This document shows, piece after piece, positions 5,528 to 31,563 of a stretch of 42,010 bases of DNA. The translations under genes were made by a program, and so were the position numbers. The notes below the pieces were generated by a model. It was given only the letters and a program-made list of their open reading frames with translations. It ran no database searches and was not told where the DNA came from. This DNA is from an uncultured beta proteobacterium. Lineage in GTDB: Bacteria; Pseudomonadota; Gammaproteobacteria; Burkholderiales; Burkholderiaceae_C. The stretch is taken from positions 1 to 42,010 of the forward strand of contig CAIJRK010000019.1 in NCBI GenBank assembly GCA_903823025.1. Direction: 5' to 3'. Positions within the stretch are counted from its first letter, which is position 1. Every line of letters starts with the position of its first letter.

Positions 5528-6853
5528 TTACAAAATCAGTACCGCACGAAAATCGTTGACATTGGTGAATGTCGGGCCGGTCATCACCAAGTCACCCAAC
5601 GCGGCAAAGTAGCCGTAGGCATCGTTGCGATCAAGATAGTCGTCGATTCTCAGGTCTTTGAGGTGTGCCCGGTTGAGGGTGGTCGGTTCGACCCAGGCGC
5701 CAGCATTATCTTGCACGCCATCAATGCCGTCGGTGTCGGCGGCTAACGCATAGACCTGCGCCTGTCCTTGGAGCGCTTGCGCCAGTCCCAGACAAAACTC
5801 ACCGGCACGACCCCCGCGTCCACGGGGCACGCCGGGCGCCAACGGGCGCACCGTCACGGTGGTTTCGCCACCACTTAAGAGCAGGCAGGGTCGTTGAAAG
5901 GGGTGGCCTTGCGTGACCACCGCACGGGCTAACGCGGCATGAACTTTGCCCACTTCACGCGATTCGCCTTGTATCTCATCGCTCAGGATGTAGGCGTTCA
6001 GGCCAGCGGCACGCGCGGCTTGTGCAGCGGCTTGCAGCGATTGCTGCGGAGTCGCAATCAAATGAATTTCATGTCCAGCAAAGGTGGCATCACCGGGTTT
6101 GGGTGTTTCCAGCGTGCCACGGGTCAGCGCCGCGAGCACCGGGGCAGGTAGGTCAATGTGGTAGCGCTTCAAAATTGAAATCGCCTCGGCACAGCACGTT
6201 GGGTCAGGCACAGTCGGCCCGCTGGCGATGGTGGCGGGGTCATCTCCTGGTACATCGCTGATGGTCAGCGTCACCACCCGCGCCGGGGCACAGGCCTGTG
6301 CCAACCGCCCGCCTTTGATTTGCGAAAGATGTTTACGCACGCAATTTATCTCGGCAATAGGGGCACCGCTGTCAAGCAAAGCTTGGTTGATGCGCTGCTT
6401 GTCTGCCAACGTCAGGCCTTCAGCGGGCAGCGTGAGCAAGGCGGAGCCGCCGCCCGAGATCAGGCAGAGCACCAAGTCATTCGCCGTCAAGTCTTGCGTC
6501 AGGGCCAATAGGCGCTGGGTGGCCGCCAGACCGGCAGCATCGGGCACCGGATGTGCTGCCTCCACCACCTCAATGCGCGGCTTCAAGCCCATCGGGCGTG
6601 GCGGTATGTGGTCATAGCGCGTGATCACCAAACCCGACAGCGGTGCCGCTTCAGGCCAGAAAGCCTCGACTGCCTGCGCCATAGCTCCACCGGCTTTGCC
6701 CGCGCCCAGCACCAAGGTTCGACCTTGGGGCGGTGGCGGCAAAAAAGCCGCTGTATTGTGCAGCGGCAGAGCACGGCGCACGGCCATCTCAAAAAGATAT
6801 GTTAAAAATTGACGCGGCTGGGTGCGAGGGTCGGGCGCCGTCCTGTGCGGCAT
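5528..6853 (-). CDS. ttuD: glycerate 2-kinase, MOFRL family (formerly called hydroxypyruvate reductase TtuD)
   Basis: A 441-residue cytoplasmic enzyme expected to phosphorylate D-glycerate to 2-phosphoglycerate with ATP. This is the entry of glycerate from tartrate, glyoxylate or serine breakdown into lower glycolysis. Family marks are the N-terminal LVLGAGKAGGAMAQAVE, the nucleotide-binding glycine run CLISGGGSALL, the INCVRKHLSQIKGGRLA segment, TISDVPGDDPATIASGPT, and the C-terminal MOFRL region (LLSGGETTVTV, then YALAADTDGIDG). Length is usual for the family. The ATG at 6853 lies 2 nt after the livF stop, implying translational coupling with the transporter. The older name hydroxypyruvate reductase is considered a misassignment for this fold. 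Confidence 0.9.
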   Translation of the reverse strand: MPHRTAPDPRTQPRQFLTYLFEMAVRRALPLHNTAAFLPPPPQGRTLVLGAGKAGGAMAQAVEAFWPEAAPLSGLVITRYDHIPPRPMGLKPRIEVVEAAHPVPDAAGLAATQRLLALTQDLTANDLVLCLISGGGSALLTLPAEGLTLADKQRINQALLDSGAPIAEINCVRKHLSQIKGGRLAQACAPARVVTLTISDVPGDDPATIASGPTVPDPTCCAEAISILKRYHIDLPAPVLAALTRGTLETPKPGDATFAGHEIHLIATPQQSLQAAAQAARAAGLNAYILSDEIQGESREVGKVHAALARAVVTQGHPFQRPCLLLSGGETTVTVRPLAPGVPRGRGGRAGEFCLGLAQALQGQAQVYALAADTDGIDGVQDNAGAWVEPTTLNRAHLKDLRIDDYLDRNDAYGYFAALGDLVMTGPTFTNVNDFRAVLIL

Positions 6854-6855
6854 GA

Positions 6856-7572
6856 TTATTCGCCCAGATAAGCGGCGCGCACTTTGGGGTCGTTCAACAT
6901 TTCTTTGGCGTTGCCCGACATGATGACCAGGCCCGAATCCATGACGTAGCCTCTATCGGCAATTGCCAAAGCGCGGCTGGCGTTTTGTTCCACCAGCAGC
7001 ACGGTGACGCCTTGCGCGTACACGTCACGAATGACTTCAAAAATCTTATCCACCATGATGGGCGACAGTCCCATGGACGGCTCATCAAGCAGCAGCACTT
7101 TAGGACGGCTCATCAAAGCGCGCCCCATGGCCAGCATTTGCTGTTCACCCCCGCTCATCGTGCCGGCCAGTTGGTCACGTCGCTCTTTAAGACGCGGAAA
7201 AATGGTGAACACTTTGTCGATATCTGCCAGAATTTCGGGCTTGTCGTTGCGGATGTAGGCGCCCATTTGCAGATTTTCAAGAATGGTCATGCGGGTAAAA
7301 ACCCCGCGCCCTTCGGGCACCATCGCCAACCCCTGTTTGACCAAGTCCCACGGACCTTGGCCGCGAATGCTCTTGCCCAGGTATTCAATATCGCCATCGT
7401 TAATCGGCAGGCTGCCCGTAATGGCTTTCATGATGGTGGTTTTGCCCGCCCCGTTGGAGCCGATCAGCGACACCAACTCGCCTTCGCGGACTTCAAAGTC
7501 AACGCCTTTGACTGCTTGAATGCCACCGTAAGCCACTTTAAGGCCAGTGACTTTGAGAAGAATGTTTGTCAT
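6856..7572 (-). CDS. livF: branched-chain amino acid type ABC transporter ATPase LivF
   Basis: A 238-residue ATPase that would sit on the cytoplasmic face of a LivHM channel and power uptake of branched-chain amino acids or related compounds (HAAT family). Walker A GSNGAGKT lies at residues 38-45. The Q-loop region follows. The signature is MSGGEQQMLAMGRAL, Walker B is VLLLDEPSMGLSP, and the switch histidine is replaced in the LLVEQNASRAL segment, which is typical for LivF. Length fits the family. It lies 24 nt after livG. Because this family also takes up amides, urea and aromatic acids, the substrate is not fixed by sequence. Confidence 0.95.
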   Translation of the reverse strand: MTNILLKVTGLKVAYGGIQAVKGVDFEVREGELVSLIGSNGAGKTTIMKAITGSLPINDGDIEYLGKSIRGQGPWDLVKQGLAMVPEGRGVFTRMTILENLQMGAYIRNDKPEILADIDKVFTIFPRLKERRDQLAGTMSGGEQQMLAMGRALMSRPKVLLLDEPSMGLSPIMVDKIFEVIRDVYAQGVTVLLVEQNASRALAIADRGYVMDSGLVIMSGNAKEMLNDPKVRAAYLGE

Positions 7573-8385: not shown

Positions 8386-9471
8386 TCAGGTCTTGACGCT
8401 TTGCAGCGACTTGCCGTGGTCTGGCGACGGCCATAGGCCACGCGGACGCAGCAGCATGATGCTGATCATGGCCAGTGCAATCAACAGTTGACGCAGGATG
8501 GAGGCATCCAGTCGCCCACCGGTCATGGCTTGCAAAGGCCCAGCCACATAGCGCAACACTTCGGGTAAAGCCGACAGCAGCACCGCGCCCAAAATAACGC
8601 CCGGCAAATGCCCGATACCGCCCAACACCACCATCGCCACAATCATCACCGACTCCATCAGACTGAAGGACTCGGGCGAAATAAAGCCTTGAAAAGAAGC
8701 AAACATAGCCCCCGACACACCGCCAAACGTAGCGCCCATGCCAAAGGCCAGCAGTTTGAGATTACGGGTATTGATGCCCATCGCTTTAGCTGCAATTTCG
8801 TCCTCGCGAATCGCCATCCAGGCACGACCCACACGCGAGAGTTGCAGCCGGTGCGAGATCACCACGCTGATCACGACCAGCACTAGGAAGGTGTAGTAAT
8901 ACAGGGAGACCGAGGCCAGTTCAAAGTTGCCAATGGTGACGCTTTTACTCAACTCCAGACCAAAGAAACTCAAGGAGTCAATCTGACTCAAGCCTTTGGG
9001 GCCGTTGGTGATGTTGACGGGATGGTCCAGGTTGTTCAAAAACACGCGAATAATTTCGCCAAAACCCAAGGTCACGATGGCCAGATAGTCGCCACGCAAA
9101 CGCAGTGTGGGCGCGCCCAACAAAATGCCCAGTACACCGGCCAAGCCTGCCGCTGCCGGAATCACAATCCACAGCGGCGTGTGAACCCCGTTGGGGAACA
9201 TGGCCGCAATCATCGGGAAAGTTTCAAACAAATGTGGCGAGGCCAATAGGCCATACATATAAGCACCAATCGCAAAAAATGCGACATAACCCAAATCAAG
9301 CAAGCCCGCGTAACCCACCACAATGTTGAGGCCCAAGGCCAGCAACACGTAAAGCAGCGCCATGTCGGCAATGCGAACCCAAGCGTTGCCAAAACCCTGC
9401 AACAGAATCGGTAACACCAGCAGGCCAACAGCGGCCAGCAGGAAGACAATAATTTTGTGTTTTTGTTTCAT
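8386..9471 (-). CDS. livM: branched-chain amino acid type ABC permease LivM
   Basis: A 361-residue inner membrane permease with about ten hydrophobic helices. The family motif is in LNIVVGYAGLLDLGYVAFFAIGAY (residues ~48-71). The cytoplasmic coupling loop is SRVGRAWMAIREDEIAAKAMGIN, which contacts the ATPases. The conserved GATFGGVSGAMFASFQGFISPESF follows. Its ATG at 9471 lies 9 nt after the livH stop. It would form the translocation pore as a heterodimer with LivH. Confidence 0.95.
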   Translation of the reverse strand: MKQKHKIIVFLLAAVGLLVLPILLQGFGNAWVRIADMALLYVLLALGLNIVVGYAGLLDLGYVAFFAIGAYMYGLLASPHLFETFPMIAAMFPNGVHTPLWIVIPAAAGLAGVLGILLGAPTLRLRGDYLAIVTLGFGEIIRVFLNNLDHPVNITNGPKGLSQIDSLSFFGLELSKSVTIGNFELASVSLYYYTFLVLVVISVVISHRLQLSRVGRAWMAIREDEIAAKAMGINTRNLKLLAFGMGATFGGVSGAMFASFQGFISPESFSLMESVMIVAMVVLGGIGHLPGVILGAVLLSALPEVLRYVAGPLQAMTGGRLDASILRQLLIALAMISIMLLRPRGLWPSPDHGKSLQSVKT

Positions 9472-9480
9472 ACCAAGCCT

Positions 9481-10410
9481 TTACGCGCGATCCGCCACCC
9501 GCTCACCCAGCAAACCCGAAGGCCGCAGTGTCAGCACGATGATCAACACAATGAACGCAAAAATATCGGAGTAGTGACTTCCCAATACGCCGCCGGTTAA
9601 TTGACCGATATAGCCTGCGCCGAGCGATTCAATCAAGCCCAATAAAATGCCACCCAACACCGCGCCCCCAAGGTTGCCAATGCCGCCGAACACCGCCGCC
9701 GTAAAGGCTTTAAGCCCTGGCAAAAAGCCCATGGTGTGCTGAACCGTGCCGTAGTTGGCAGCCCACATCACGCCTGCAATCGCGGCCAGCACAGCACCAA
9801 TCAAAAAAGTCGCAGAAATCACCACGTCGGGCTTGACACCCATCAGCGCCGCCACGCGAGGGTTCTCTGCGGTAGCCCGCATGGCGCGACCTAATTTCGT
9901 GTAATTCACCAGCCACATCAAAATTGCCAGCGACACAACCGTCGTCGCCAGAATCAGCACCTGCGTTGGCGTGATCACGGCACCGCCAATTTCAAAAGGC
10001 GTGCGTGGCAGCAAGGTGGGATACGGTTTGTAGTTGGGTTTCCAGATGATCATGGCCAGCGTCTGCAACAGTATGGACATACCAATGGCGGTGATCAAAG
10101 GCGCCAGCCTGGGACTGTTGCGCAAGGGCCGATAGGCCACTTTTTCGATCACATAACTCAGGGTTGCCGCCACGATGCAGGCAATGATCAACGAGATAAA
10201 AAGAATCACATAACCGGGGGTATTGGGCATGGCGTCTTGCATCAAACCAATGATGCTCCAGCTGGTTAAAGCCCCGATCATCAAAATTTCACCATGGGCA
10301 AAATTGATCAGGTTGATGATGCCGTACACCATGGTGTAGCCCAAAGCAACCAGGGCATACATGCTGCCCAACACCAGACCATTGATGATCTGCTGTATGA
10401 AAGTATCCAT
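9481..10410 (-). CDS. livH: branched-chain amino acid type ABC permease LivH
   Basis: A 309-residue inner membrane permease. It begins MDTFIQQIINGLVLGSMYAL and carries the hallmark YTMVYGIINLINFAHGEILMIGAL. The coupling loop is TKLGRAMRATAENPRVAALMGV, and the protein ends in LTLRPSGLLGERV. The frame is open upstream to 10530, but the ATG at 10410 is preferred: it has a GGAG Shine-Dalgarno 6-7 nt upstream and gives the normal family length. It is the first gene of livH-livM-livG-livF-glycerate kinase-crp. No periplasmic binding protein gene (livJ/livK) is next to it or anywhere in the window. Confidence 0.95.
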   Translation of the reverse strand: MDTFIQQIINGLVLGSMYALVALGYTMVYGIINLINFAHGEILMIGALTSWSIIGLMQDAMPNTPGYVILFISLIIACIVAATLSYVIEKVAYRPLRNSPRLAPLITAIGMSILLQTLAMIIWKPNYKPYPTLLPRTPFEIGGAVITPTQVLILATTVVSLAILMWLVNYTKLGRAMRATAENPRVAALMGVKPDVVISATFLIGAVLAAIAGVMWAANYGTVQHTMGFLPGLKAFTAAVFGGIGNLGGAVLGGILLGLIESLGAGYIGQLTGGVLGSHYSDIFAFIVLIIVLTLRPSGLLGERVADRA

Positions 10411-10595
10411 AAAAATCTCCGATTTTTGGCCGGCTTGAATCAGCAAATTACTGATGAGCGATGCCGCCTTTTGAGCGCTGCCAGTTCTATAGCAATAAAC
10501 CTGCCAATGTGTCGCCCCGAATTGGGTCACAAACAGGTGAGTGGACGCGATTGTAGCGAGCGCTCAGGGTTTATCGAGCCGGCTTGCGGCGGTGT
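10411..10595 (-). promoter_or_regulatory. livH upstream region, probable operon promoter
   Basis: This 185-base stretch separates the rarA stop from the livH start. On the minus strand a GCTACAAT box (TACAAT) lies near 10552, with only a weak -35 before it. A further A/T-rich patch (GCTATAGAAC) lies nearer the gene. No clear terminator for rarA is visible, so read-through from rarA is possible. Confidence 0.35.
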
Positions 10596-11903
10596 TTACC
10601 CTTGAAGGTTCTGCTTTTTGAGTCGCCGTAATTTGTCTGCAATTTTGATTTCCAGACCTCGCTCAACCGGTCTGTAAAAATCGGGCGATGCCATGCCATC
10701 CGGCAAGTAGCGCTCACCTGCTGCGAAGCCGCCTTCTTCGTCGTGTGCGTAGCGGTAGCCTTTGCCGTAATCCAATGCTTTCATCAGTTGGGTGGGCGCA
10801 TTTCGCAGGTGCATCGGCACCGGGCGCGTGCCCTCTTGTTTAACGAACGCTTTGGCTTCGTTGAAGGCTTTGTAAACCGCGTTGGACTTGGGGGCGACGG
10901 CCAAATAAACCACACATTCGGCCAGCGCCAACTCCCCCTCGGGTGTGCCCAGGCGCTCATAGACATCGGCCGCATCCAGCGCCAGACGCAAGGCGCGCGG
11001 GTCGGCCAGACCAATGTCTTCACTGGCGATGCGAATCAGTCGGCGTGCCAGATAACGCGGCTCGGCACCGCCGTCGAGCATCCGCACCAACCAGTACAGG
11101 GCGGCATCCGGGTCAGAGCCACGCACGGATTTATGCAGCGCTGAAATGGTGTCGTAAAACTGCTCTCCGCCCTTGTCGTAGCGGCGCATCCGCTCGCCCA
11201 GCACATTGAGCAACCACACGTCAGTGATCTCGGTGCGCTTCTCCTGTACTGCCGCCACGGCCAGCGTTTCCAGCGTATTGAGCAGGCATCGGGCATCTCC
11301 GTCGGCATAAGCGACCAGACGATCCACCGCTATCTTTTCAATGGCCGGAAGCACCTGCACGGCTTGGGCTGAAAGAATAATTTGCTCCAGATCCTGGGGT
11401 GACAAAGGCTGTAACACATACACCGCTGCCCTGGAGAGCAGGGCCGAGTTCAACTCAAAGGAAGGGTTCTCGGTGGTGGCGCCAATAAAGGTGAACAGGC
11501 CACTTTCGACATGCGGCAAAAAAGCATCTTGTTGACTCTTGTTGAAACGATGCACTTCATCCACAAAAACAATCGTGGCGCGCCCCTGCCCTTGCGCGAC
11601 CTGCGCTTTTTCGACCACCTCGCGAATCTCCTTGATACCGCCCAGTACGGCGCTGATAGTCATGAATTGCGCGTCAAACGCATGAGCCATCAAGCGCGCA
11701 ATCGTGGTTTTTCCGGTGCCCGGCGGTCCCCACAAAATACAGCTGTGCGGGCGTCCTGACTCGAAGGCCATCCGCAGCGCCCGACCCTCACCCAGCAGAT
11801 GTTGCTGACCAATGACATCGCCCAGTGTTTGAGGCCGCAAGCGTTCGGCCAATGGTTGATTGACTGACGAGGGCAAGGCGGAAGATAACTTTTCAGTTGG
11901 CAT
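10596..11903 (-). CDS. rarA: replication-associated recombination protein A (RarA/MgsA)
   Basis: A 435-residue AAA+ ATPase related to clamp loaders and RuvB. It acts at stalled replication forks and interacts with single-strand binding protein. The N-terminus has PLAERLRPQTLGDVIGQQHL, Walker A GPPGTGKT at residues 59-66 and Walker B TIVFVDEVHRFNKSQQDAFL. Sensor 1 is GATTENPSFELNSALLSR. The C-terminal tetramerisation and MgsA domain includes SVRGSDPDAALYWLVRMLDGGAEP and RRLIRIASEDIGLADPRAL. Full length. In many proteobacteria rarA follows lolA directly. Here lolA and rarA keep the same strand but are separated by two genes of opposite orientation. Confidence 0.96.
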   Translation of the reverse strand: MPTEKLSSALPSSVNQPLAERLRPQTLGDVIGQQHLLGEGRALRMAFESGRPHSCILWGPPGTGKTTIARLMAHAFDAQFMTISAVLGGIKEIREVVEKAQVAQGQGRATIVFVDEVHRFNKSQQDAFLPHVESGLFTFIGATTENPSFELNSALLSRAAVYVLQPLSPQDLEQIILSAQAVQVLPAIEKIAVDRLVAYADGDARCLLNTLETLAVAAVQEKRTEITDVWLLNVLGERMRRYDKGGEQFYDTISALHKSVRGSDPDAALYWLVRMLDGGAEPRYLARRLIRIASEDIGLADPRALRLALDAADVYERLGTPEGELALAECVVYLAVAPKSNAVYKAFNEAKAFVKQEGTRPVPMHLRNAPTQLMKALDYGKGYRYAHDEEGGFAAGERYLPDGMASPDFYRPVERGLEIKIADKLRRLKKQNLQG

Positions 11904-21529: not shown

Positions 21530-22564
21530 TTAGATTCGTTGGCGTGGCAAGGTCAGCGTAACCACCAAACCGGTATCAGTGCCGTTACGCAAACGCAGTT
21601 GACCTTGGTGTCGGCGTGCAATGTCGTGGGCAATAGACAAGCCTAGGCCAACGCCGCCACTGTTGCGGTTACGCGACGACTCCACCCGGTAAAACGGGGC
21701 CAGCACGCAATCCAACTCGTGTTCAGGAATTCCGGCCCCTTCATCGCGCACTTCAATACAGACGTGATCGGGGTGATCGGTTAGCTGGATGCGCGCCACA
21801 CGGCCATAGCGGACGGCGTTTTCCACCAGGTTATCGAGGCAGCGGCGCAGCGACGAGGCTTGTGCTTTGAGCGGTGCCGCATGGCCGGTGACGGACACGT
21901 CATGACCACACGCCTGTTGGTCATCAGCCAGACTGTCCAGCAAAGAAGTCACATCCAGCAACACGAACGGCTCGGGGTCAGCCGCACCGCGCAAATAATC
22001 CAGCGTGGCCGTAATCATGTCGTTCATCTCGATAATATCCTGCCCAAAATGCCGTCGTTGATCGGCATCAGTCAAGCCTTCAGCCCGCAGCGCCAGACGC
22101 GTTAAGGGGGTGCGCAGGTCGTGCGATACGGCGGCGACAAACCGGTCACGCTCGCTGAGTTGTTGGCAAATTTGGGCCTGCATCTGGTTAAAAACACGGG
22201 TCGCGGCCCGGCATTCGTCGGGGCCATCTTCGGCCATCGGGGGACGATGAATATCGAGGCCGATTTCATGCGCAGCGCTGGCCAGGCGCTTGATCGGTTG
22301 CGACAACCAACGCGCACCAATCCAGGCGGCCAGCATCAACGCGGAAAGCCGCACGCCAATATCGAGCAGCAATCCCGGATGCAACAAAGGCGGTGGGTCA
22401 TGCGGTGGCGGGTGACCGGGGGCGGGCATCGGACGCAGTTCAAACATGAGCGTCAACGCCAACACATGGCTGGCGAGTACGGCCACAAACAGCAGCAAGG
22501 CCAACCGGCCAAACAAAGTGTTCGGCCATAAACGAATCGGCCAGCGTGAGATCAATTGCGCCAA
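21530..22564 (-). CDS. sensor histidine kinase of a two-component system
   Basis: A 344-residue inner membrane kinase. Helix 1 (about residues 17-41) and helix 2 (about 66-86) enclose a tiny periplasmic loop of ~25 residues with PMPAPGHPPPHDPPPLLHPG, which contains His51, His55 and His62. A HAMP region follows. The phosphoacceptor is His148 in AAVSHDLRTPLTRLALR. The ATPase domain has N-box NLVENAVRYG, G1 VRDEGAGIP and G2 GGVGLGLSIA. Its start overlaps the response regulator stop by 13 nt. The short loop suggests sensing within the membrane or of a small ligand such as a metal, which is inference. Confidence 0.93.
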   Translation of the reverse strand: MAQLISRWPIRLWPNTLFGRLALLLFVAVLASHVLALTLMFELRPMPAPGHPPPHDPPPLLHPGLLLDIGVRLSALMLAAWIGARWLSQPIKRLASAAHEIGLDIHRPPMAEDGPDECRAATRVFNQMQAQICQQLSERDRFVAAVSHDLRTPLTRLALRAEGLTDADQRRHFGQDIIEMNDMITATLDYLRGAADPEPFVLLDVTSLLDSLADDQQACGHDVSVTGHAAPLKAQASSLRRCLDNLVENAVRYGRVARIQLTDHPDHVCIEVRDEGAGIPEHELDCVLAPFYRVESSRNRNSGGVGLGLSIAHDIARRHQGQLRLRNGTDTGLVVTLTLPRQRI

Positions 22565-23292
22565 GCCGCAGCGCCTTGCACCGACTGGACGTTAAACATA
22601 TAACCCGCGCCGCGAACGGTCTTGATCATCTTGGGTTCACGCGGATCATCGGCCAACTTCTGGCGCAGGCGTGACACCAGCAAATCAATGCTGCGCTCAA
22701 ACGAATCCATGGCCCGACCACGCGCTTGCGCCATCAACTGATCCCGGCTGAAAAGCCGACGCGGCATTTGTAAAAAGGTAGAAAGCAGACGAAATTCGGC
22801 ATTGGACAAAGCCACCACCAGACCGGCGGGCGACGTGAGGCAGCGGTCTTCGCGGTGCAATTCCCAGCCATCAAAACGAATCACGTCGCTGCGACTGTAC
22901 GCCGCCGTGCCGTCAAGCGTCGTACTGGCGCGGCGCAGCACGGTTTGGATGCGCGCCACCAACTCACGCGGCTCGAAGGGCTTGCTCATGTAGTCGTCGG
23001 CCCCGGACTCCAGCCCGAGCACACGGTCATAAGGGTTGGAGCGGGCGGTCAACATGATGATTGGAATGGGCGAATGCTGGCGCAAATCGCGGGCCAACGC
23101 CAGACCGTCTTCGCCCGGCAACATCAAGTCCAACACAATCAGGTCGATGTGCCTGGCGGCCAATTGCGCACGCATTACCACACCGTCGCCTGCAACACAG
23201 GCCTCGAAACCGAAGCGGGCCAGGTATTCACGCAACAAGGCGGTGATGCCTTCGTCGTCGTCAACGATCAATATTTGCGAATGAGGCTGCAT
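22552..23292 (-). CDS. OmpR/PhoB-family response regulator
   Basis: A 246-residue DNA-binding regulator. The receiver domain has acidic residues 11-13 (IVDDDEG), phosphoacceptor Asp55 in IVLDLMLPGEDG and the conserved lysine in YMSKPFEPRELV. The C-terminal winged helix of the OmpR type ends in SFERSIDLLVSRLRQKL and TVRGAGYMFNV. It precedes and overlaps its kinase gene. It diverges from the EF-hand and export genes, so those are the natural candidate targets. Confidence 0.95.
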   Translation of the reverse strand: MQPHSQILIVDDDEGITALLREYLARFGFEACVAGDGVVMRAQLAARHIDLIVLDLMLPGEDGLALARDLRQHSPIPIIMLTARSNPYDRVLGLESGADDYMSKPFEPRELVARIQTVLRRASTTLDGTAAYSRSDVIRFDGWELHREDRCLTSPAGLVVALSNAEFRLLSTFLQMPRRLFSRDQLMAQARGRAMDSFERSIDLLVSRLRQKLADDPREPKMIKTVRGAGYMFNVQSVQGAAAWRN

Positions 23293-23414: not shown

Positions 23415-23480
23415 GGACAAACGCGGTTAACGCGCGTCTTCAACAATGTGTTGATTCAGTCAACAACCTAAGGAATGACG

Positions 23481-24209
23481 ATGAGCACCATCAGCGGAGT
23501 TAGTAGTACCAGCAGCGCTTGGGCCAACACGAGCGCGTCGCGCAGTCAGATGCAAGCCAAAATGTTTGCCAAGGTCGATGCCAACAGCAGCGGCGGTGTG
23601 GACAAAACCGAGTTGCAGAGCCTGATGGCCGACGTTGCCAAAAAATCCGGGGTCGCCAACAGCAGCAGTACCGACGAGTTGTTTGGCAAAATGGACAGCA
23701 ACAGCGATGGCAGCTTGTCCAGTGATGAGTTGGACAGCGGAATGCAAACCCTCATGCCAGCACCGTCCACGATGGATTTTGCCAAGCAAAGTGCCGGCGG
23801 CTCACCACCACCTGTCGGCGGTGGCGGCGGCGGCGGAGCCAGCAGCACAAGCAGCACAAGCACCACGTTTGACACGCTGGACACCAATGAGGACGGCGTC
23901 GTGTCAGCCCAGGAACGTATGGCCCCCAGTACCTCGACCGACCCACTGCAAGCCCTGTTCAAGGCCATTGATTCCGATAGTGACAGCAAAATTAGCGGCG
24001 ATGAGTCGGATGCTTTCATCAAACAACTGACGTCACAGGTTGAAGCCACAACCCAGTCGGCACAAAACACAGACACCAACGCCAGCACCACCGCAAAGTC
24101 TAAAAACGACAGCTTTGATTTGAAGGAACTAGCCCGTCAGACCTATGAGCAAATCGCCAGCGGTCTGTCACAACAAGCCAAGGGATCTACGTTTAGCATA
24201 ATGGCCTGA
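23481..24209 (+). CDS. EF-hand calcium-binding protein, serine-rich
   Basis: A 242-residue protein with four EF-hand loops: DANSSGGVDKTE (33-44), DSNSDGSLSSDE (72-83), DTNEDGVVSAQE (134-145) and DSDSDSKISGDE (164-175). The fourth has Ser where the central Gly is usual and may bind calcium weakly. A seven-glycine linker (113-119) separates the two pairs. There is no Sec signal peptide or membrane helix. The ends are Ser/Thr rich and the C-terminus closes with FSIMA. The start is set at 23481 because AAGGA lies exactly 6 nt before it, while the in-frame ATG at 23475 directly abuts AAGGA. It diverges from the two-component system and precedes the exporter genes. Substrate, sensor or buffer roles are all possible. 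Confidence 0.85.
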   Translation: MSTISGVSSTSSAWANTSASRSQMQAKMFAKVDANSSGGVDKTELQSLMADVAKKSGVANSSSTDELFGKMDSNSDGSLSSDELDSGMQTLMPAPSTMDFAKQSAGGSPPPVGGGGGGGASSTSSTSTTFDTLDTNEDGVVSAQERMAPSTSTDPLQALFKAIDSDSDSKISGDESDAFIKQLTSQVEATTQSAQNTDTNASTTAKSKNDSFDLKELARQTYEQIASGLSQQAKGSTFSIMA

Positions 24210-27836: not shown

Positions 27837-29038
27837 TGCTGCTCAATACCTTGTTACTGGCCCTGCGCTCCATCCAGCGCAACCTGATGCGCTCGTTTTT
27901 AACGATTCTGGGCATTGTGATTGGCGTGAGCGCCGTCATCACCATGGTGACGCTGGGCAATGGGGCCACGATGGCGATTCAAAACCAGATTTCGGGTTTG
28001 GGCACCAATCTGCTCCAGGTGCGCCCCGGTCAACGCATGGGGCCGGGCAGTGGTGGCGCGCCATCGTTCAAGGAGTCGGACGCTGCGGCCATCGCCACCC
28101 AAATCGGTGGTATCGCTGCTGTGGCGCCTGAAGCGCGCACCAATGCCACCGTTATCGCCAATGGCCGCAACTGGAGCAGCAGCATCATGGGCAGTACCAA
28201 TGCCTGGCTCATCACGGGCAACTGGCAACTCGGCGAAGGGCGTGAGTTTTCTGACGACGAACTGCGCGCTGGAGCCGCCGTTTGTCTGATCGGGGAAACT
28301 GTGCGGCGTGAACTTTATGGCGCACTTCCCGCCTTGGGTTCGCAATTACGCGTGAAGCAAATATCCTGCACCGTGGTGGGCGTGCTGGCCGCCAAAGGCC
28401 AAGGCGCTTTCGGCAACGACCAAGACGACATGGTGCTGGTTCCCATCAAAACGCTGCAACGCCGCATCACCGGCAACATTCGCGTTAACACCTTGCTGGT
28501 GTCGATGAGGGACGGCAGTGATGCTGACCGTGTCAAAGCCAGCCTGACGCAATTGCTGCGCGAACGCCGCAAGCTGGCTGCCGGAGACGACGACAACTTC
28601 AACGTGCTCGACACGAAGCAACTGGCCGACACCTTGTCGGGCACGACCAAAGTGCTAACCACACTCTTGGGCGCGGTCGCCGCCGTGAGTTTGCTGGTGG
28701 GCGGCATCGGCATCATGAACATCATGCTGGTGAGCGTGACCGAGCGCACCCGCGAGATCGGGCTGCGGCTGGCAATTGGTGCGCTGGAGCGTGAGGTGTT
28801 GCTCCAGTTTCTGATTGAGGCCGTGGTGTTGTCCTCGCTGGGCGGCTTGATCGGCATCGTGCTGGCAACGCTCGCCTCGCTGGGCCTGTCAAGTTTGATG
28901 GATGTGCCCTATGTGTTTAACGTCGGCGTGAACGTGTTGTCGTTCTTGTTCTCGGCGGGTATTGGCGTGTTGTTTGGCTACTTTCCGGCGCGCCGGGCCG
29001 CTCGACTCGATCCGATTGAAGCGCTTCGCCATGAGTGA
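27836..29038 (+). CDS. MacB-type ABC transporter permease
   Basis: A 400-residue inner membrane protein. One N-terminal helix (about residues 20-42, [20 protein letters not shown]) is followed by a ~220-residue periplasmic MacB_PCD domain ([32 protein letters not shown]). A C-terminal FtsX bundle of three helices follows, with [28 protein letters not shown] and the cytoplasmic end [17 protein letters not shown]. With the ATPase, adaptor and NodT-like channel it forms a complete tripartite exporter. Such systems export macrolides, peptides, siderophores or haem-like compounds; the substrate cannot be told from sequence. Confidence 0.95.
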
Positions 29039-29218
29039 TCACAGCGGTTTTCTTCGGGCGCTGTTTTAGCGTCACTTCCAACTTTAAAAAAGTTGTTGCG
29101 AAATAACATATCCAGTGCATATTCGTCAGAAATAAATCCTTAAAAACAATAAGGAATTACCCTTAATTTCAGTAGAATTCGTCACATAAAAAACATGTGA
29201 CCGCTTTATGCGTCGTAA
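29039..29218 (+). promoter_or_regulatory. promoter region of the cytochrome operon
   Basis: An A/T-rich 180-base gap after the exporter genes. It contains CCTTA-N7-TAAGG (29138-29154), a further CCTTA at 29161-29165, and the GTCACAT-N7-ATGTGAC dyad described separately. No terminator with a T tract is clear for the exporter operon. No canonical -35/-10 pair stands out. Confidence 0.45.
29181..29201. promoter_or_regulatory. dyad-symmetric operator-like site
   Basis: GTCACAT (29181-29187) and ATGTGAC (29195-29201) form a perfect 7-bp inverted repeat around AAAAAAC, ending 17 bases before the cytochrome b561 start. Spacing and symmetry fit a dimeric regulator site or a leader hairpin. The half-sites are TCACA/TGTGA in the reverse order to a Crp site, so Crp binding is not implied. 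Confidence 0.45.
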
Positions 29219-29797
29219 ATGCAAAAATTATCGGATTCCTTAACGTCCAAACCTGCCCGGCAATCTTCGCCCACGATTGCCATCCATTGGTTGTCCGCCT
29301 TGGCGGTTGTTTTGGCATTTACAACGGTATGGTCGCGTGACTTTATCGATGACGATGCGCTCAGCGCGCTACTGCTTGGAACCCATCGCCAGCTGGGCTT
29401 ATTTGTCCTTTTGCTCTGGTTTGTCCGGTTGTTGGTGCGCTGGTCTCACACCCCCCCTGATCAAGCGCAAGGCACGCCATTATTGATGCGGTGGGCCGCC
29501 GCAGGCGCGCATGTGATGCTGTATGGCGTTTTGTTAGCCATGCCACTTTTGGGTTGGGCCATGACGAATGCACAAGGTCATGTGGCCCGTTTGGCCAACC
29601 TGGTTCCCTTGCCCCTGCTGGTCTCGATTAACCCGGATCTGGCAGACACCCTGCAAGACTGGCACGAATGGACGGCTTGGTGTTTGTTGGGCTTGATCTT
29701 GTTACATGTATTGGCAGCGCTCTGGCATCACGTTATTCGTCGCGATGGCGTACTGGCGGCCATGCTCCCGTTGGTGAGTCCACGGAGCCAGCGGTAA
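29219..29797 (+). CDS. cytochrome b561 family protein
   Basis: A 192-residue inner membrane di-haem b cytochrome with four helices, expected to exchange electrons between the quinone pool and periplasmic partners. Candidate haem-ligand histidines are in AIHWLSALAVVLAF, LLGTHRQLGLFVLLLW, AAGAHVMLYGVLLAMPLLGW and LILLHVLAALWHHVI. The conserved W-H-E-W segment (LQDWHEWTAW) precedes the last helix. It is the first gene of a run with the outer membrane cytochrome (45 nt later) and the soluble cytochrome c, which suggests it is their membrane electron donor or acceptor. Confidence 0.9.
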   Translation: MQKLSDSLTSKPARQSSPTIAIHWLSALAVVLAFTTVWSRDFIDDDALSALLLGTHRQLGLFVLLLWFVRLLVRWSHTPPDQAQGTPLLMRWAAAGAHVMLYGVLLAMPLLGWAMTNAQGHVARLANLVPLPLLVSINPDLADTLQDWHEWTAWCLLGLILLHVLAALWHHVIRRDGVLAAMLPLVSPRSQR

Positions 29798-29842
29798 TCT
29801 AATTTTTCTAATTTTTATCTTTCGACTCTTTGGAATAATTTA

Positions 29843-31126
29843 ATGAAACTGTGGCGAACCTTTCAAGCTGTGCCAACGGCTCTACTCAAGACGATGACTT
29901 TATTGGCCGCGTTGTGCGCAACACAAGTCCATGCGTTGCCCAGTTTTGCAAGACAAACCGGGATGGACTGTGTCGGCTGTCATGTGGGCGGCTTTGGCCC
30001 CCAACTCACCCCGGCGGGTGTGATGTTCAAGTTAACCGGCTACACCGACTCTGATGGTCAATCCGGCAAAGTGCCGCTGTCAGCCATGGTGGTGGCGTCT
30101 TGGTCGCAAACATCAGCGGATCAAAATCCACCGCCTGATCACCTCAAAGCCAACAACAATTTACGCATGGACGAAGCGTCTGTTTTTCTGGCTGGAAAAC
30201 TGACCGAGCACATCGGGGCTTTTGTCCAAGTGACGAATAACGGCACGGACCACACCACCAGCCTGGATCAGACCGATATTCGGTATGCCCGCTCCCTGGA
30301 GTTAGGGTCTAAAGATGCCATCTTTGGTGTCAGTGTGAACAACAATCCGGGCGTGCAAGACCCCTTCAACACCATGCCGACCTGGGGGTTTCCTTTTGCA
30401 TCATCCCCCGCAGGTTTTGGCACCGGCAGCGCCGCAACGCTGATCAACGGCGGGTTGGAAGGCCGCGTGGTGGGTGCCTCGGCTTACACCTTTTATGACA
30501 AATCTCTTTACGCCGAGTTAGGCACTTACCGCTCCATGTCTGCGGCAAATCAAAATCGTTTGGGCCTTAGTGACGACTCGCAGCGTTTGGGTGGCAACAC
30601 TTATTGGCGGTTGGCCTGGATGAAAGACCAAAAAAGTCAAGCGTTTAATGTCGGCGTCTTTGGCTGGAATGCGTCCCTAACCCCTGACCGCAACGCCAGT
30701 GCCGTCCAAGACAAATACCGTGATGTGGGCGTCGATGCGGGCTATCAATTTTTAGGCACCCGTCAACATGTCGCCACTGTTAATGCCAGCTATGTAGATG
30801 AGCGCAAAACCGAAGGGGCAACGGGCGATCTCATTTCGTTAAAAGAAGCGCGCCTGAACGCCTCCTACTATTTCAAACAAACATGGGGCGGCACCGTGGG
30901 CTTGTTCTCAACACATGGGTCAGACCCACTGGCCGCCACGAAGGGCAGTATTTTGCAAGTGGACTGGACACCTTGGGGCAAAGAGAGTGCCAGCGCACCT
31001 GATCCGTTTGGCTGGGCTAATCTGCGCATAGGCGCCCAATACTGGATTTATAACCAGTTTGCTGGCGACACCGTTGCCGCCAAAGATCACAACACGCTGT
31101 ATTTATTTGCCTGGACAAGTTTCTAA
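29843..31126 (+). CDS. outer membrane monohaem cytochrome-porin fusion, Cyc2-like
   Basis: A 427-residue protein. A signal peptide ends near residue 31 (ATQVHA). Immediately after it comes PSFARQTGMDCVGCHVGG, with the c-type haem site CVGCH at 43-47, and then LTPAGVMFKLTGYT. The remaining ~340 residues are rich in alternating polar/aromatic strands with Gly/Asn/Asp turns (LEGRVVGASAYTFYDKSLYAELG), and the chain ends in LYLFAWTSF, a terminal Phe typical of outer membrane beta-barrels. This layout, length and FARQTG-xx-CXXCH opening match, as recalled, the fused cytochrome-porin Cyc2 of iron oxidisers. TPAG replaces the more usual TPFG. Electron transfer across the outer membrane is inferred. 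A soluble cytochrome c follows after 2 nt. Confidence 0.75.
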   Translation: MKLWRTFQAVPTALLKTMTLLAALCATQVHALPSFARQTGMDCVGCHVGGFGPQLTPAGVMFKLTGYTDSDGQSGKVPLSAMVVASWSQTSADQNPPPDHLKANNNLRMDEASVFLAGKLTEHIGAFVQVTNNGTDHTTSLDQTDIRYARSLELGSKDAIFGVSVNNNPGVQDPFNTMPTWGFPFASSPAGFGTGSAATLINGGLEGRVVGASAYTFYDKSLYAELGTYRSMSAANQNRLGLSDDSQRLGGNTYWRLAWMKDQKSQAFNVGVFGWNASLTPDRNASAVQDKYRDVGVDAGYQFLGTRQHVATVNASYVDERKTEGATGDLISLKEARLNASYYFKQTWGGTVGLFSTHGSDPLAATKGSILQVDWTPWGKESASAPDPFGWANLRIGAQYWIYNQFAGDTVAAKDHNTLYLFAWTSF

Positions 31127-31128
31127 TC

Positions 31129-31533
31129 ATGCGCCATTCCTTTTATCAAAAAAGTCGTGCTGTGCGGTTGGCGGCTACCTTGTTGACCGTCGTCACTATT
31201 TCGCCAGCTTGGGCGCAGCAAGGAGACGTGACCAAAGGCGGTGAGCTTTTTGCTACACATTGCGCCGAGTGTCATAGCATGAAAGAGGGCAAAGACAAGA
31301 AAGGCCCGTCCTTGTTTTCAATCTTTGATAACAAGGCGGCTTTGCGTGAAAACTATGTTTATTCAGACGCCCTGAGAAACAGCCATATCACCTGGAATGC
31401 AGAATCTTTGGGCGCCTACCTCACCAACCCCAAGAAGTTGGTGCCAGGCGGAAAGATGAAGTATGACGGCTTGGAAAGCGCCTCAGAACGCGCCGATTTA
31501 ATCGCGTATCTGGCCCGTCAGTCCAAACATTAA
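31129..31533 (+). CDS. class I c-type cytochrome (periplasmic, monohaem)
   Basis: A 134-residue protein. The signal peptide is cleaved after residue 29 (TISPAWA). Haem site CAECH lies at 45-49 within GGELFATHCAECHSMKEG. The distal ligand is probably Met110 in LVPGGKMKYDGL, followed by the C-terminal helix RADLIAYLARQ. The GPSLFSIFDNKAALRENYVYSDAL segment is that of the cytochrome c2/c550 type. It starts 2 nt after the outer membrane cytochrome stop, so it is the likely periplasmic shuttle between that protein and inner membrane carriers. Confidence 0.94.
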   Translation: MRHSFYQKSRAVRLAATLLTVVTISPAWAQQGDVTKGGELFATHCAECHSMKEGKDKKGPSLFSIFDNKAALRENYVYSDALRNSHITWNAESLGAYLTNPKKLVPGGKMKYDGLESASERADLIAYLARQSKH

Positions 31534-31543
31534 CGTTATGAAA

Positions 31544-31563
31544 AACGGACTTAAACGTCCGTT
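31544..31563. terminator. shared terminator of cytochrome operon and purN
   Basis: AACGGAC-TTAAAC-GTCCGTT (31544-31563). On the minus strand it is followed by a run of T, making it a good terminator for purN. On the plus strand the tail is less T rich. It lies between the two convergent stops. Confidence 0.75.

Follow-up and report, generated by a model that had tools for sequence, protein, structure and literature searches.

Homologues of Cyc2 serve as iron-oxidation markers (PMC7005843), and many of them are found in bacteria not known to oxidise iron, where their role is stated to need testing (PMC8406198, PMC5566968). Here we analyse a window of 42,010 nucleotides (nt; the whole stretch of DNA under study, from contig CAIJRK010000019.1 of an uncultured beta proteobacterium), in which the gene for a Cyc2-like fused protein, hereafter called the cytochrome-porin, stands between the genes for a cytochrome b561 and a monohaem cytochrome c. 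We put the probability that these three genes encode a compact electron conduit linking the quinone pool with the cell exterior at about 60%. The best evidence for such wiring from the quinone pool to the outer membrane comes from the relatives of the locus, in which b561 and a NapC/NirT-type protein appear to trade a single slot. The arrangement is real, conserved and, as far as our searches go, undescribed; it is assembled from known parts, and its function is inferred. Our searches of an open-licence library brought up no description of the operon or of the b561/NapC exchange, subscription papers and preprints lying outside the search.

Comparison with described electron conduits

Like the Cyc2 proteins of Mariprofundus ferrooxydans and Acidithiobacillus ferrooxidans, the cytochrome-porin has a single CXXCH behind the motif AXPXFAR[Q/K][T/Y], a similar length and a predicted 16-strand porin. 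Its haem domain is homologous to that of the M. ferrooxydans-type family, whereas its barrel does not align and the protein stands apart in the tree. The partners are also different: a monohaem cytochrome c plus b561 or NapC in the window subfamily, the dihaem cytochrome Cyc1 in A. ferrooxidans (PMC7029218). In the MtrCAB, MtoAB and PioAB systems, as in our proposal, a haem protein and a porin move electrons across the outer membrane with a quinone link of NapC/NirT type (CymA, ImoA), but they are described as holding a decahaem cytochrome in a 26-strand barrel, unlike the one haem fused to a small barrel here. Geobacter offers alternative quinone-linked gates for extracellular electron transfer (ImcH, CbcL and CbcBA), and in Geobacter sulfurreducens two of them, ImcH and CbcL (CbcL has a di-haem b-type domain), are reported as alternative inner-membrane quinone oxidoreductases for acceptors of different potential (PMC9129911). 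Those gates coexist in one genome, whereas b561 and NapC replace each other beside the same outer-membrane gene. The Cytbc operon of Gallionellaceae in the KS culture likewise combines a b561 domain with small periplasmic cytochromes next to an outer-membrane system for iron oxidation, but the b561 of that operon is described as part of a fusion with a dihaem cytochrome c, and it accompanies the mto operon, not a Cyc2-like protein (PMC5566968).

Layout and conservation of the operon

The original prediction had claimed three tightly spaced genes and, for the middle product, one CXXCH behind the leader and a C-terminal Phe. Reading of the open reading frames (ORFs) bears this out: all three genes lie on the + strand, with gaps of 45 nt between b561 and cytochrome-porin and 2 nt between cytochrome-porin and cytochrome c, and the leader, judged by eye, ends in ..VHA ahead of the CXXCH. 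The features are as follows.

29219..29797, + strand: cytochrome b561, 192 amino acids (aa), predicted quinone-linked inner-membrane di-haem protein (PF01292, conserved His)
29843..31126, + strand: Cyc2-like fused cytochrome-porin, 427 aa
29933..29959, + strand: ALPSFARQT, which fits the Cyc2 motif AXPXFAR[Q/K][T/Y] of PMC8406198
29969..29983, + strand: CVGCH, haem c attachment site, residues 43-47
30077..31120, + strand: predicted 16-strand beta barrel, residues 79-426 (structure model)
30086..30088, + strand: Met82, candidate second axial haem ligand, proposed from its conservation
31129..31533, + strand: monohaem class I-type cytochrome c, 134 aa, presumably periplasmic (PF00034; CXXCH at 31261-31275)
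31544..31563, no strand: inverted repeat with 7-bp arms just 3' of the last gene, possible operon terminator

To collect relatives, an alignment of 20 homologues was used to derive two peptide patterns, named genomes were scanned with these, and the best 80 of 104 relatives were kept, so the sample favours the window subfamily. Gene presence at these loci (labelled L plus a number) was determined with one profile per gene together with a count anchored on conserved codons. In 53 of the 80 loci a b561 gene immediately precedes the cytochrome-porin gene on the same strand, and in one (L080) it lies downstream, giving 54 in total; a cytochrome c gene lies downstream in 77, the exceptions being L060, L063 and L070, three of the loci with neither b561 nor NapC. 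The window order of b561, cytochrome-porin and cytochrome c, for which a survey of relatives had been proposed, recurs in 53/80 loci. Since the host genome has only 7 PF01292 matches in 3.47 Mb, this order is far above chance, and chance neighbours can be rejected, as can a one-off or unusual operon. The earlier statement that a b561 partner would be an unusual arrangement was therefore wrong, such a partner being standard in the subfamily. The pairwise distances of b561 and porin correlate (r 0.76; n=51 including the window, with mechanical ORF starts), as do those of the remaining pairs among b561, porin and cytochrome c (r 0.72 and 0.73), and none of 2000 permutations was as high in any of the three comparisons. 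A response regulator and a kinase are encoded nearby in 51/80 loci, 36 with b561, 12 with NapC and 3 with neither; in the two examples typed by domain, the regulator has PF00072/PF00486 and the kinase PF08521 (2CSK_N) with HisKA. Two loci with the gene set lie on contigs titled Chitinophaga pinensis (L006) and Candidatus Kuenenia stuttgartiensis (L080), from bins that may be mislabelled; in the porin tree L006 groups closely with proteobacterial rows and L080 falls near the base.

Both flanking proteins belong to recognised families. The window b561 matches PF01292 over residues 14-184 (E 2e-28; 99.8 bits versus a cut-off of 30.1), and H23, H56, H149, H163 and H170 are kept in 52, 53, 53, 53 and 53 of the 53 aligned sequences (window included), so that profile score and conserved His both identify a prokaryotic b561. 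Four of these five His would bind haem, whichever four they may be. The third protein of the operon matches PF00034 (1.7e-8) with one CXXCH, and among 75 aligned sequences C45, C48 and H49 are present in all and M110 in 74.

Exchange of b561 and NapC

A NapC/NirT-type protein, found by profile, takes the place of b561 in 14 of the 80 loci, encoded divergently upstream in nine and downstream in five, and no locus has both. PF03264 was found in all five of the NapC proteins tested (L053, L067, L027, L057 and L081), and 13 of the 14 have four CXXCH, L027, cut by the contig end, showing two. L170, a family member outside the 80, also has NapC. The NapC rows occupy three places of the porin tree, on which the b561/NapC label needs three changes; for this tree the b561 label of L007 and L075 was set manually, which agrees with the codon-anchored count. 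A single NapC origin is rejected by the approximately unbiased (AU) test (p 0.000143; log-likelihood difference 256; 14 versus 55 rows). b561 and NapC/NirT belong to different families, both of which connect quinone to periplasmic partners. The alternation of two such unlike families beside the same outer-membrane gene therefore suggests quinone exchange, which supports the quinone link of the original prediction more strongly than the window on its own could. NapC/NirT-type proteins such as CymA and ImoA are described as connecting conduits to quinone (PMC13390463).

The cytochrome-porin and its relation to Cyc2

The cytochrome-porin of the window matches no Pfam or NCBIfam family. Searches of the PDB gave zero sequence matches at E 1 and, by profile, two weak rows (best E 0.25), so a sequence relative of solved structure was rejected. 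By the screen for Cyc2 homologues given in PMC8406198, the protein qualifies on length (at least 365 aa with CXXCH) and on PSFARQT at 33-39 upstream of CXXCH, its full signature reading ALPSFARQT-GMD-CVGCH. A slightly looser form of the motif fits 81 of 83 ORFs, a set in which the window is counted twice and the second Cyc2-like gene of L043 is included, and the other two ORFs begin at a contig edge. PQL follows CXXCH, but five residues separate H47 from P53 where the Cyc2 consensus spacing leaves three, so that, measured against this spacing, the window protein has two extra residues between CXXCH and PXL; 80 of the 83 ORFs share the wider spacing. In that consensus PXL lies four residues downstream of CXXCH, and it stands outside the homologue screen (PMC8406198). 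Met82 is kept in 79 of 80 aligned cytochrome-porin rows (window counted twice) and in 27/27 rows across two subfamilies.

Structure prediction gave a barrel of 16 strands (predicted local distance difference test, pLDDT, 84.4), within the 14 to 18 strands for which a structure check had been suggested. Its top PDB fold matches include OprP and OprO, which are the porins named for Cyc2 in PMC8406198; both are also among the fold matches of the M. ferrooxydans model, which was weak (pLDDT 67.6) and whose strand count was not used. The modelled likeness to general porins would suit a solute porin with a structural or regulatory haem, b561 and cytochrome c then serving another enzyme. We consider this very improbable, because CXXCH is invariant in all 80 aligned rows (window again counted twice) and because one or the other of two unlike redox proteins accompanies it in the operon.

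A phylum-wide profile search, with matches at E 1e-5 in 80 of 397 genomes, brought up a protein that has Ghiorsea and other Mariprofundaceae or Mariprofundales as its named relatives. This set includes P0322, named Mariprofundus ferrooxydans and bearing a Cluster 1-like motif, which by species and motif would be the Cyc2 assayed in PMC8406198. Profile comparison with this M. ferrooxydans-type family aligned only residues 11-73 of the window protein (probability 97.1, E 7.4e-11) and left the barrel unaligned. The tree, of 137 rows, was rooted on the Cluster 1-type rows, themselves assigned to Cluster 1 by species names and motif; it omits L072 and L081, both cut at the N-terminus, of which L081 but not L072 was restored for the AU test. 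In this tree the eight Cluster 1-type rows and the window lie on opposite sides of a branch with support 100, placing the window protein outside the Cyc2 Cluster 1 grouping (M. ferrooxydans/Zetaproteobacteria type). These sequence comparisons make it a homologue of Cyc2 that belongs to a separate subfamily. The Cyc2-like identity originally proposed is thus upheld by motif, haem domain homology and predicted barrel, and is qualified by the unaligned barrel and the distance from Cluster 1-type rows. The genomes behind L119-L137, most of them of family code f43, are probably Zetaproteobacteria; alongside the Cluster 1-like type they carry another Cyc2-like type, close to AIPAFARQTGxACLxCHFQxFP.

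Distribution and surroundings

At E 1 the cytochrome-porin is the sole match in its host genome. Of 89 genomes searched in the host genus, 50 of which have a completeness of 90% or more and a contamination of 5% or less, only the host has the close type, and 17 (host included) have any Cyc2-like match. Outside the host there are 19 such matches, with 33-41% identity over the matched part, and 15 of these 19 loci read CHAGGQFPELTP. Six of the 19 loci were reread with longer flanks (L161-L166): a dihaem c-type ORF adjoins the gene in all except L162, and none of the six has an intact b561 or a NapC in these flanks. A 109-aa b561-like ORF, seen beside L088 and in L161, is perhaps a remnant. PF00034 matched in two stretches in two of those dihaem proteins and in the dihaem protein beside the second Cyc2-like gene of L043. 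The presence of a dihaem partner instead of b561 or NapC in host-genus loci indicates that Cyc2-like subfamilies differ in wiring. L043, Uliginosibacterium gangwonense, has two Cyc2-like genes of different subfamilies (9156-10643 and 5926-7353), separated by about 1.8 kb; one is accompanied by b561 and a monohaem cytochrome c, whereas a gene for a dihaem cytochrome c follows the other.

Across the family, a match to the window protein with E of 1e-60 or lower occurs in 21 of 399 genomes, host included. Base composition does not support horizontal gain: the three genes have 50-56% GC, and their GC at third codon positions (0.58-0.63) overlaps that of ftsK (0.59) and trxB (0.62) in the same window. 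The patchy spread, with the close type in 1/89 genus genomes, would suit an operon of assimilatory or protective use, one whose reduction of ferric complexes, peroxide or some other oxidant at the outer membrane serves to acquire iron or relieve stress and supports no growth. The same holds for the lack of a RuBisCO match in the host and for the best-scoring model of the window b561, PRK11513 cytochrome b561, which scores below its cut-off (73.4 of 170 bits) and which we take to be CybB, a superoxide oxidase. We regard such a use as unlikely, since no neighbour cluster beyond the system genes occurs in more than six loci; the clusters are unannotated, and an iron-uptake or stress gene near a few loci is possible.

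The genes upstream of the window operon, which we take to be tolC-macA-macB-like, end at 29038, and the downstream gene, presumably purN-like, is convergent, so that the three genes stand alone. An inverted repeat, GTCACAT-N7-ATGTGAC, at 29181-29201 ends 17 nt before the b561 start and might be an operator; inspection by eye of eight near-relative stretches, with mechanical ORF starts, found neither a copy of it nor a common upstream site. At 23475-24209, between a two-component system and the tolC-macAB-like operon, lies a gene for a Ser-rich protein with several EF-hand-like DxDxDG-type motifs (by eye).

Proposed electron path and its direction

In the conduit that we propose, electron exchange with quinone would take place at b561 in the inner membrane, and the monohaem cytochrome c would serve as the shuttle through the periplasm. 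At the far end the cytochrome-porin, predicted in the outer membrane, would meet a small soluble partner inside its barrel and either give electrons to it or take them from it, a kind of meeting argued for Cyc2 in PMC8406198. With outward flow, electrons would travel from quinol by way of b561, cytochrome c and cytochrome-porin to an acceptor outside the cell whose potential is fairly high. The least secure part of the proposal is its direction, and we lean only slightly towards outward flow over inward flow from Fe(II). Ubiquinone has a potential of about +0.1 V. Outward flow is favoured by the 208 mV of the Cyc2 of strain PV-1 (PMC8406198), which, if the haem here is similar, lies above ubiquinone, and by the often reductive use of NapC/NirT. 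It is weakly favoured by what the host genome lacks: it has no match to RuBisCO models, which represent one of several carbon-fixation routes, to reaction-centre models or to the decahaem DmsE/MtrA model TIGR03508, whose cut-off none of 14 control genomes passes. With no TIGR03508 in the host and a single CXXCH in the window protein, the locus does not qualify as a conduit of MtoAB/MtrAB type.

Inward flow would begin with the oxidation of dissolved Fe(II), or of another donor, by the cytochrome-porin; cytochrome c and b561 would then feed quinone and a quinol-dependent respiration such as nitrate reduction. In our estimate inward flow has somewhat less than an even chance. The Cyc2 motif and predicted barrel fit it, as do the names of several relatives, which point to genera with denitrifiers, such as Thauera, Azoarcus and Dechloromonas. 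Furthermore, the FeGenie authors list Rhodoferax ferrireducens among iron reducers encoding cluster 3 cyc2, an iron-oxidation marker (PMC7005843), and Fe(II)/Fe(III), given as 0 +/- 100 mV at pH 7 (PMC8406198), makes the end-to-end reaction possible when set against the ubiquinone value. Weighing on the other side are the position of the window protein apart from Cluster 1-type rows, the lack of RuBisCO and the uphill step to quinone from a haem near +208 mV, if similar; electrons from Fe(II) could also reach a cytochrome c oxidase without a dedicated quinone protein.

Several points count against our proposal. The demonstrated activity of the Cyc2 family is Fe(II) oxidation, which runs inward (PMC8406198), and ImoA, a NapC/NirT member, is said to serve iron oxidation (PMC13390463), so that the b561/NapC swap leaves the direction unfixed. 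Neither b561 nor NapC is present in 12 of the 80 loci; five of these hold less than 900 nt upstream and seven hold 2.8 kb or more, so the quinone module is not universal. Among the 12, L063 has just 233 nt downstream, and some have other cytochromes c downstream (L068, L073, L079). The recurring two-component system is missing beside the window operon: the pair at 21530-23292 was rejected as its counterpart because its kinase has HAMP, not 2CSK_N, and the best hit for the recurring kinase in the host genome has 32% identity and lies on another contig. The trees were built by a quick method with long branches flagged, and the haem plug was modelled poorly (mean pLDDT 41 for residues 31-40 and 63 for residues 41-50). 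As a caution, in a Sideroxydans strain cyc2 expression did not track iron-oxidation ability (PMC12442390), so expression alone may not settle function. As a separate observation, L068:2297-3648 and L079:7823-9040, without b561 or NapC, have a second cytochrome c with two CXXCH downstream, and L068 additionally has a cytochrome c'.

Implications

We tentatively suggest, at rather less than even odds, that the operon represents a third outer-membrane conduit architecture: a self-contained and often two-component-controlled module of mostly heterotrophic Beta- and Gammaproteobacteria, with a one-haem cytochrome-porin and an exchangeable b561/NapC quinone gate that was traded at least three times. 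The exchange of gates perhaps matches the potential of different extracellular partners. The subfamily brings its own quinone-linked partner and shuttle, meaning that its role is testable with three defined genes in culturable relatives, among which Derxia gummosa and isolates of Ideonella and Zoogloea have the operon, and the repeated b561/NapC exchange provides a natural experiment on the requirements of an inner-membrane gate. If the reading as a third architecture is true, many 'Cyc2' marker hits in non-iron bacteria would be quinone-driven reductases rather than iron oxidases, and if flow is outward, the practice of taking cyc2 hits by themselves as a sign of iron oxidation would have to be revised.

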